Of a stretch of DNA of 35,677 nt, positions 31,448-32,445 are shown one piece after another. The stretch spans positions 1-35,677 of the forward strand of contig CALMZQ010000007.1 of the NCBI GenBank assembly GCA_937870915.1, given 5' to 3'. Numbering within the stretch: position 1 is the stretch's first letter; each line of letters begins with the position of its first letter. The notes under the pieces were generated by a model that was given only the letters and a program-made list of their open reading frames with translations, did not search any database and was not told the origin of the DNA. Made by a program: the position numbers and the translations under genes. This DNA is from an uncultured Ignavibacteria bacterium. GTDB taxonomy: Bacteria > Bacteroidota > Ignavibacteria > Kapaibacteriales > Kapaibacteriaceae.

Positions 31448-31452
31448 CGAAT

Positions 31453-31478
31453 GTGCGCCAAAGTGGCGTGCGCGTTTT
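31453..31478 (+). terminator. Possible weak terminator after ileS
   Basis: GTGCGCCA, loop AAG, TGGCGTGC (two wobble pairs), then GCG and a short T run (TTTT). It lies five bases after the ileS stop and 30 bases before the histone-like gene. It may only attenuate read-through. Confidence 0.4.
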
Positions 31479-31507: not shown

Positions 31508-31753
31508 ATGGCAGCAGCAAAAAAAGCCGCCAAGAAGCCTGCAGCGAAGAAGGCCGTCAAAAAGGCGACCAAAAAGGCTACTAAGAAGGCTGCAAAGCCT
31601 GCGAAGAAGGCCGCGAAGAAGCCTGCAGTGAAGAAGGCAGCAAAGCCTGCTAAGAAGGCCGCCAAGAAGGCGACCAAGAAGGCTACAAAGAAGGCCACGA
31701 AGAAGGCTGCAAAGCCTGCTAAGAAGGCCGTAGCAAAAAAAAAAGCCAAGTAA
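31508..31753 (+). CDS. Histone-H1-like Lys/Ala-rich protein, possibly the N-terminal part of a DksA-like protein
   Basis: An 81-residue, almost pure Lys/Ala/Pro/Thr protein (MAAAKKAAKKPAAKKAVKKAT and similar repeats), like the C-terminal tails of histone H1 and bacterial H1 homologues. It would bind DNA or RNA non-specifically. The ATG at 31508 has AGAGG upstream; a longer frame from 31451 is unlikely. The reading frame ends at TAA 31751 just after an A10 tract (31735-31744). If the ribosome or polymerase shifts by -1 there, the frame continues without a stop into the DksA-like gene, giving a single 312-residue protein. I recall that related bacteria have such Lys-rich-DksA fusions, so this may be one gene. 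Confidence 0.75.
   Translation: MAAAKKAAKKPAAKKAVKKATKKATKKAAKPAKKAAKKPAVKKAAKPAKKAAKKATKKATKKATKKAAKPAKKAVAKKKAK
31735..31744 (+). other. A10 tract at the junction of the histone-like and DksA-like frames
   Basis: Ten consecutive A residues, read GCA AAA AAA AAA GCC in the histone-like frame. A-runs of this length promote transcriptional slippage and -1 ribosomal shifting, and are also where sequencing indels occur. A -1 step moves the reader into a frame open from 31723 through 32445. Confidence 0.85.
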
Positions 31754-31872
31754 GGGTACTCCCGAACAAGGCTAAGAGCCCAGCAACGACTTCAAAAAAT
31801 CAGACATCGGCGTCGAGAAATAGTTCGGCAAATGCCAAGAACGCTCAGTCAAAGCCAGCAGCAAGTAGGAAT

Positions 31873-32445
31873 GTGACGAATTCGAAGTCTGAGAAGTCAA
31901 CTGGGACAGTCGCATCTGCATCGGCGGTTGTAAAGACCGCCGGTGCAGTTTCTGTTTCATCCCAAGCTCCTGCACCACGCAGTACAAAGCAGATGCTCCC
32001 AATAGCACCCAAAAAAGGTTTGAAGTATCCTGAGAAGGACCTTTCATTCTTCCGCACGAATATTGAAAAATCAAAAGAAGAGGCTCTAGAAGAGCTCCGA
32101 ATGCTCCGTGAACGCCTCGAAGATCTTACGAGTAGTGAGAACAACGAAGACAGCGCTATCTACTCTATGCACATGGCCGAACAAGGGTCAGAAGCCGTAG
32201 AGAAGGAAAAGACGTATGCACAGATTCAACGGATCCAGGATTATCTGCGCAAGCTCGATGAGTCGCTGGCACGTATCGAAGACAAAACGTATGGTATCTG
32301 CCGTATGTGCGGGATCCTGATCAACAAAGAGCGTCTTCTTGCTGTACCGATCACAACACTCTCGGCATCGTACAAGATCCATCAACGTTGTCCGGAAGAC
32401 GGTGTAGACCGTATTGTAGCTAAGAACCCGGATGCACTGAAGTAG
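31873..32445 (+). CDS. DksA/TraR-family protein with altered zinc finger
   Basis: A 190-residue protein if started at GTG 31873; the same frame is open back to 31723 but contains no ATG before 31993. DksA features are FFRTNIEKSKEEALEELRMLRERL, the coiled-coil region that enters the RNA polymerase secondary channel, HMAEQGSEAVEKEK, then LARIEDKTYGICRMCGILINKERLLAVP, the zinc-finger segment. The first CxxC pair is present, but the usual second pair is replaced by S and Y (TTLSASYK); a His and Cys slightly later (IHQRC) might substitute. The Ser/Ala/Thr/Lys-rich N-terminal part looks like a linker, supporting fusion to the histone-like frame upstream. Confidence 0.8.
   Translation: MTNSKSEKSTGTVASASAVVKTAGAVSVSSQAPAPRSTKQMLPIAPKKGLKYPEKDLSFFRTNIEKSKEEALEELRMLRERLEDLTSSENNEDSAIYSMHMAEQGSEAVEKEKTYAQIQRIQDYLRKLDESLARIEDKTYGICRMCGILINKERLLAVPITTLSASYKIHQRCPEDGVDRIVAKNPDALK

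Follow-up and report, generated by a model that had tools for sequence, protein, structure and literature searches.

Putative programmed slippage at a conserved A-tract between a Lys/Ala-rich reading frame and a DksA-family gene in Kapaibacteriaceae

Introduction

The closest described systems to the locus reported here are the dnaX slippage genes, namely that of Thermus thermophilus with an A9 run and those of the two-ORF type. According to the available parts of two publications, they combine a long A-run with a nearby zero-frame stop and two products, and in the two-ORF type the longer product requires the shift (PMC3711429, PMC5009743). The runs of the two-ORF genes comprise 7–10 As, nine genes having 10 and three Chlorobi genes having 9, 8 and 7, and transcriptional slippage was proposed for them (PMC3711429, from the accessible portion). 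Selection against slippage-prone runs is visible from a length of nine in many bacterial genomes, as stated in the part of PMC1088944 at hand. For E. coli RNA polymerase, the excerpted text of PMC6260861 reports that slippage needs longer A runs than T runs and that a reporter study with short runs did not detect it on poly-A.

The locus described here likewise has a long A-run, a near zero-frame stop and, as we propose, two products, of which the longer one, containing DksA, would need the shift. Unlike dnaX, the gene encodes a putative secondary-channel regulator, and in the family of the analysed genome it additionally carries two hairpins, one immediately 3' of the tract and a covarying, terminator-like one further downstream. 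In the papers searched we found no report of a dksA gene with a programmed frameshift, of a Kapabacteria DksA, of a Lys-rich N-terminal extension of DksA or of transcriptional slippage in Ignavibacteria, with the restriction that supplements could not be searched. The main text of GeneTack (supplements again not searchable) and the accessible part of the review PMC5009743 do not mention dksA. The kind of slippage is known; for a DksA gene under slippage, its apparent threefold origin and the paired internal terminator-like hairpin no precedent in print was found.

Results

Layout of the locus

We analysed a stretch of 35,677 nucleotides of an uncultured Ignavibacteria bacterium (GCA_937870915.1, contig CALMZQ010000007.1), referred to as the window, from a draft genome of 3.3 Mb in 233 contigs that is 97% complete. 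In the window a Lys/Ala-rich reading frame and a DksA-like frame follow, in this order, on ileS and precede lspA and rluD (Table 1), the three neighbours being presumed to be these genes from their translations.

An earlier note on this DNA had described a Lys/Ala-rich frame stopping just past a run of ten As, and a second frame, shifted by -1, that is open from 31723 to 32445 and has its first ATG at 31993. The window sequence agrees on all of these points. A -1 step at the tract connects 79 residues of the first frame to 233 residues of the second, and this recount from the frames arrives at the same 312 residues that had been given for the fused product.

Table 1. Features of the split locus in the window
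Feature	Positions	Strand	Remarks
Lys/Ala-rich ORF, zero frame, 81 aa	31508..31753	+	ATG after CAGAGGT; stop TAA 31751-31753, two codons past the A-tract
A10 putative slippage tract, zero frame GCA AAA AAA AAA G	31735..31744	+	A10 in 22/23, A11 in 1/23 family genomes
Hairpin at first base 3' of the tract, contains zero-frame stop	31745..31772	+	in 20/23 family genomes
Ser/Ala/Thr/Lys-rich linker, -1 frame	31744..31989	+	open in 23/23; low synonymous variation
RTG-ACG block	31873..31878	+	conserved in the family; role unexplained
Intrinsic-terminator-like hairpin and U-rich tail TTTCTGTTTC, within the -1 reading frame	31916..31958	+	in 23/23 family genomes
DksA/TraR-like domain and stop, -1 frame	31990..32445	+	predicted coiled coil, remnant zinc finger

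Among the family loci with long flanks, ileS was found upstream in 18/20, lspA downstream in 20/20 and rluD downstream in 19/20; for 59 outgroup loci the respective numbers were 45, 29 and 22. Another hairpin that resembles a terminator and has a T-rich tail is located at 31452-31472, in the gap that separates the ileS stop from the Lys/Ala-rich ORF (in the following also called the tail). Elsewhere in the window genome, on contig C139, a stretch shows 69% similarity to the Lys-rich part (E 9e-4) and is perhaps, going by this similarity, a second Lys-rich gene.

Conservation of the tract and the reading frames

The window genome belongs to a family represented here by 23 genomes from 7 genera (f1); two further families of the same order are denoted f7 and f9. 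All 23 family genomes contain the DksA domain, always in the -1 frame, with the zero-frame stop 0–3 codons past the tract. A comparison of the tract length in close relatives, which the earlier note had proposed as a check, gave the counts in Table 1, with the phase being the same throughout: the single A11 tract (G014) leaves the frame relation to the domain unchanged. The tail ORF is intact from its ATG in 19/23 genomes, the exceptions being G011 and G021 (contig ends), G008 (a run of N) and G003. In the latter an extra frame break, which could be an assembly error, is situated inside the Lys/Ala repeat upstream of the intact tract.

From the tract to the domain the -1 frame contains no stop in any of the 23 genomes, and the other two forward frames are stopped in every one of them. 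The distance from the tract to the RTG codon takes 8 values between 128 and 161 nt, all of which equal 2 modulo 3 except the 148 nt of the A11 genome G014. Within this part of the linker the third positions of the -1 frame take 48/105 changes (p=0.006). This value is based on six separate pairs, because the test over 14 pairs (p=2e-6) involved pairs that were not independent. A third-position excess in the -1 frame was also obtained for the linkers of f7 (51/113 changes, p=0.006) and f9 (41/70, p=1e-5), from one pair each. Between the RTG codon and the linker hairpin of f1 the excess was not significant (p=0.16, six separate pairs), a weakness that is expected if RNA structure constrains this stretch. 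In the domain, third positions take 353/459 changes, and 795 synonymous versus 219 non-synonymous codon differences were counted over 14 partly overlapping pairs; by these substitution patterns the DksA domain is under purifying selection.

Upstream of the tract AAA accounts for 62/604 Lys codons (~10%, 19 genomes), while inside the tract all Lys codons are AAA. The window genome assembly has 7 sites with at least nine As on either strand, 3 of them being A10. Six of the 23 family assemblies (G003, G005, G006, G009, G020, G021) have no A10 on either strand other than the tract, and many further A10 runs occur in other assemblies of the family, e.g. in G011, G014, G018 and G019. Judged from the comparison of these genomes, the tract is maintained by selection.

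Synonymous variation in the linker is low: excess codon identity amounts to 0.40 in the linker (14 columns) versus 0.06 in the domain (98 columns; Mann-Whitney p=7e-7; 21 rows, the near-copies G008 and G022 being excluded here as well as from the linker alignment used with RNAalifold). One cause is the stem of the linker hairpin. An overlapping ORF as the cause was rejected, given the stops in the other two forward frames. Two of the reverse frames over the linker are also stopped in 23/23 genomes, and the third, which is stop-free in 6/23, is read as a composition effect.

Start signals

The window ATG at 31508 pairs with the anti-Shine-Dalgarno (anti-SD) sequence with -7.1 kcal/mol. Over the family the pairing averages -7.9 kcal/mol before the first ATG (n=19), -1.4 before the RTG codon and -1.8 before linker codons (n=23 each). 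The RTG codon is GTG in 18/23, ATG in 4/23 and GCG in 1/23 genomes (G006), and the next codon is ACG in 20/23. In G020 and G021, where AAGGA precedes the RTG codon, the pairing reaches about -6 kcal/mol; in these two, and to a lesser extent in G014, G018 and G022, RTG pairs better than most linker codons. Including G005, in which GGAG precedes another ATG, a ribosome-binding-like motif before an in-frame start, i.e. a separate start signal in the linker, was found in only 3/23 family genomes. AGGAA is often seen directly before the RTG-ACG block, too close for a normal ribosome-binding site.

In f7 the tail start shares AGGAG with the start of in-frame fusions, and internal ATGs pair weakly with the anti-SD sequence. 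Given this, the strong pairing of the first ATG in f1 and an RTG codon at linker background, the whole gene appears, from these sequence signals, to begin where the tail does.

Recurrence of the split in other lineages

Among 99 relatives searched, 5 gave no match and 94 did: 23 from the family, and 71 outside it, for which the upstream DNA was read. At most of the other loci in the order, DksA either shares a single in-frame ORF with a Lys-rich tail or stands without a tail. An arrangement of two genes, each with its own start and without the tract, which according to the earlier note would have refuted its reading, was not seen among them: all non-split relatives had one fused ORF or DksA alone.

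The split arrangement recurs in f7 (G028 and G054, tract A10; 2 of 9 genomes with a match in a family of 10) and in f9 (G055, G060 and G076, tract A9; 3/12 genomes with a match, this family having been sampled rather than searched whole). At these loci the Lys/Ala-rich ORF stops 0–5 codons past the tract and the domain follows in the -1 frame, such that an A-run of 9–11 is present in 28/28 split loci (23 from f1, 2 from f7 and 3 from f9). On a domain tree of 92 rows the split state needs three changes, and three are forced by the starred branches; the tree rests on few columns and leaves many forks unresolved. Its simplest reading would be three separate gains of the split, with f7 nested among in-frame fusions.

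A wider search covered 148 genomes across the phylum, with upstream DNA read at 40 loci: 24 of the class (all those listed outside the order) and 16 others, mostly picked for long open frames. None of these 40 loci had an A-tract split. A Lys/Ala-rich tail joined in frame to DksA is a common arrangement throughout the class and was also found in several further families of the phylum. One relative with such a fusion (G094, locus L158) has A9 and A10 runs inside the ORF without any frame break, and a long A-run is thus not always tied to the split.

Hairpins in the linker RNA

Directly after the tract, i.e. starting at its first following base, most family genomes can form a hairpin that closes 25–34 nt further on. 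It is modest (mean z -1.4), and absent or different in 3/23 genomes. Compensatory double changes were found in 5/10 pairs, counted on a chosen subset of the 23 rows, namely 13 that have equal length. Four of five covariation measures exceeded all 500 shuffles; for the fifth, further pair types, 83/500 shuffles did equally well. RNAalifold applied to the linker did not recover this hairpin and recovered the terminator-like one; on a 40-nt alignment of all 23 rows, in which rows were misaligned, it gave no pairs for the hairpin after the tract. No comparable hairpin was seen at the five split loci of f7 and f9. In ribosomal -1 frameshift cassettes the 3' RNA structure is spaced by about 5–9 nt from the slippery site; the f1 hairpin has no spacer at all.

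The hairpin further downstream has a stem of 13–14 pairs in the window (31916-31948), which is followed by TTTCTGTTTC. All family genomes contain it, 169–207 nt past the tract and with -21 to -34 kcal/mol, a stability of -20 kcal/mol or below being reached by 0/1380 shuffled controls. Of its 15 pairs, 11 have changed on both sides and 93.5% of cells pair, which was not attained in any of 500 shuffles; for slid pairings the value falls to 25–57%. The U-tail is imperfect with 4–7 U of 9. A hairpin of this kind is absent from the 71 other loci in the order, including the five split loci of f7 and f9, with two of the loci compared (G025, G089) truncated by contig ends close to the domain and one (G033) cut further up. 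There, the best stems inside ORFs have -19.9 (G091, 2 U) and -18.3 kcal/mol (G024, 1 U); in G046 a stem of -20.7 kcal/mol (5 U) precedes the ORF. Rfam provided one chance-level match only, on the opposite strand (E 0.63). With a GC-rich stem and a U-rich tail the linker hairpin fits an intrinsic terminator in its sequence features, the termination itself being inferred.

The DksA-family protein

That the second frame encodes a DksA-like protein was confirmed by a profile match to PF01258 above the family cut-off (26.1 bits versus 24.9, E 8e-6; 29 bits in the genome search). The NCBIfam DksA and yteA models matched below their cut-offs. No other PF01258 gene was found in the window genome. By sequence, phmmer matched the domain to the DksA structure 6ptg (2e-9), and the best Foldseek matches of an AlphaFold2 model of the domain were 4ijj (E 6e-5, TM 0.65/0.75), 5vsw and 1tjl (E 1e-4). 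The model, which is of moderate confidence (mean pLDDT 73.6), has helices at residues 15-48 and 58-97, with low confidence for the tip residues 54-57; an antiparallel two-helix coiled coil with a small C-terminal domain is thus predicted, as required for this fold.

The DksA zinc finger has the C4 motif CxxC-x17-CxxC. In 27 aligned proteins of the order C104, C107 and C134 are invariant, and SAS occupies the position of the second CxxC, such that the full motif is not met. By these features the product is a DksA-family protein with a remnant zinc finger; polymerase binding and synergy with ppGpp are inferred.

The 81-aa tail had been called histone-H1-like. This holds for its composition, which is alike to that of histone H1 and HC1-HC2, and for nothing beyond it: curated families gave 0 Pfam and 0 NCBIfam matches.

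Discussion

The conservation of the arrangement and its recurrence support the slippage reading that the earlier note had offered, with slippage in cells still being an inference. Overall we consider it highly probable that slippage of either kind is programmed here and yields two products, although no RNA, protein or reporter data were available. In the proposed mechanism a single start codon with a good ribosome-binding site would open the Lys/Ala-rich, DNA-binding-like tail. At the run of 9–11 As part of the expression would pass to the -1 frame, most likely by RNA polymerase slipping and adding one A to some mRNAs, and in f1 ribosomal -1 slippage on A_AAA_AAA before the hairpin would possibly assist. 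Without a slip, reading would stop a few codons later and release a free basic peptide. With a slip, it would proceed along the flexible linker and enter the DksA-type regulator, of which no second one was found in the genome; since the slipped reading continues through the linker, DksA would be made as a tail-linker-DksA fusion.

Which machine slips is not settled. The locus meets the criterion of a transcriptional slippage site, an A/T run of at least about nine at a frame junction that is conserved in relatives, and it also contains an in-phase X_XXY_YYZ heptamer, A_AAA_AAA in f1 and A_AAA_AAG in f7 and f9. A -1 frameshift of the dnaX/IS type by the ribosome alone at these heptamers, which would be a sub-case of the preferred explanation, draws support from the compensatory changes of the f1 hairpin directly 3' of the tract and from the stop that immediately follows A_AAA_AAG in 4/5 of the f7/f9 loci. 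However, seven bases suffice for the ribosome, yet the run is 9–11 long in 28/28 loci even though f1 prefers AAG for Lys; moreover f7 and f9 have no comparable 3' hairpin and that of f1 has no spacer. We regard a purely ribosomal shift without any role of the polymerase as somewhat unlikely. Taken together, the seven bases that are enough for a ribosome, the threshold of nine bases for selection against runs and the precedent of the two-ORF dnaX genes favour slippage by RNA polymerase, which is probably the slipping machine, perhaps together with the ribosome. A final decision is precluded because a conserved hairpin 3' of the tract, as in f1, typically accompanies ribosomal and not transcriptional slippage. 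The weak slippage reported for E. coli polymerase on A runs also counts against the polymerase.

Readings without slippage have to be weighed as well. DksA could be made alone from an internal start in the linker (RTG at 31873 or ATG at 31993), with tract and tail ORF forming a separate upstream gene. The GTG or ATG at the same aligned codon in 22/23 genomes, followed by ACG in 20/23, the low synonymous variation around it and the motifs before RTG in G020 and G021 and before another ATG in G005 speak for such a start, and the aligned codon together with the better pairing in a few genomes keeps it possible. It remains quite unlikely in our view: the mean anti-SD pairing does not exceed the linker background, G006 has GCG at this codon, all 23 genomes keep the -1 frame free of stops between tract and RTG, where the length varies in steps of three and third positions show an excess of changes, and the f7 tail start keeps the AGGAG of in-frame fusions while internal ATGs pair weakly. 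Long A-runs are prone to indels, which in general would permit DNA mutations in the run to switch DksA on and off between cells. Such phase variation is very unlikely with the same off-phase in 28/28 loci, a length of 10 in 22/23 f1 genomes and an A11 in G014 that keeps the frame relation. The earlier note had also considered an indel in the assembly. A homopolymer next to a repeat in a draft genome, and the further break in the G003 repeat, might suggest such an error or a decayed gene; the chance of either is practically negligible, and an indel in the window assembly is excluded, since 22 other genomes share the place and phase of the tract, two other lineages share the arrangement, and the domain is under strong purifying selection. 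Assembly indel, decay and phase variation were accordingly rejected on the 28 split loci.

For the preferred reading, i.e. programmed slippage, the linker hairpin would connect the choice of frame with transcription termination in a way that can be tested. In f1, RNA left bare past the zero-frame stop would fold the terminator-like hairpin, whereas ribosomes in the -1 frame would cover and traverse it, keeping DksA, lspA and rluD transcribed. From this an attenuator coupled to frame choice can be inferred, on which our judgement is evenly divided; alternatively the hairpin could form the 3' end of a short tail mRNA, stabilise such an mRNA or be a site of processing. If it does terminate transcription, lspA and rluD may by inference also hang on frame choice. 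The tract with its phase, the open frame, their conservation and recurrence and hairpin covariation can be taken as established from the genomes compared. Whether slippage and termination at the hairpin occur, and the roles of the products, are inferred; the level of slippage, the slipping machine and the purpose likewise remain inferences because expression data are wholly lacking.

A global regulator, for which the genome search gave no second family member, would thereby depend on an error-prone reading step, at which three lineages seem to have arrived separately. RF2 may serve as a parallel, which is drawn in this analysis: its shift is +1, ribosomal and sensed by the product, whereas no feedback has been shown for the f1 DksA gene. 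In the accessible part of PMC5009743, RF2 (prfB) is also a gene-expression factor that needs a frame transition. According to PMC4330370, DksA/ppGpp makes transcription more accurate by slowing down misincorporation, the portion of that source at hand making no mention of slippage, and the role is contested (PMC6027873, likewise in part). Given the reported role, the split gene is a natural test of a factor controlling its own synthesis via slippage. One could imagine that the DksA-type factor, sited in the secondary channel of RNA polymerase, alters slippage at its own A-tract, with unslipped RNAs giving the free peptide and ending at the linker terminator and slipped ones giving tail-DksA together with LspA and RluD. 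This switch is speculative and, as we see it, unlikely. If true, slippage, translation coupling and attenuation would form one feedback circuit setting the level of a global regulator.

With E. coli DksA, P. aeruginosa DksA2 and TraR (PF01258) the f1 protein shares the predicted coiled coil and the small C-terminal domain. Unlike them, it has an N-terminal basic tail and a linker, lacks the second CxxC and seemingly depends on a shift for its expression. The in-frame Lys-rich-tail DksA proteins of the order, the class and other families of the phylum have the same kind of tail and domain, and in the order often the same neighbours. Their ORF is, however, continuous without a frame break at an A-tract, and in those of the order the linker hairpin of f1 has no counterpart. 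Standard gene prediction would probably break the f1 gene in two and leave the regulator without its tail and linker, an inference made without inspecting annotations. Records titled Melioribacter, Bradyrhizobiaceae and Desulfobulbaceae were found to carry genes of this order and are probably mislabelled genomes.
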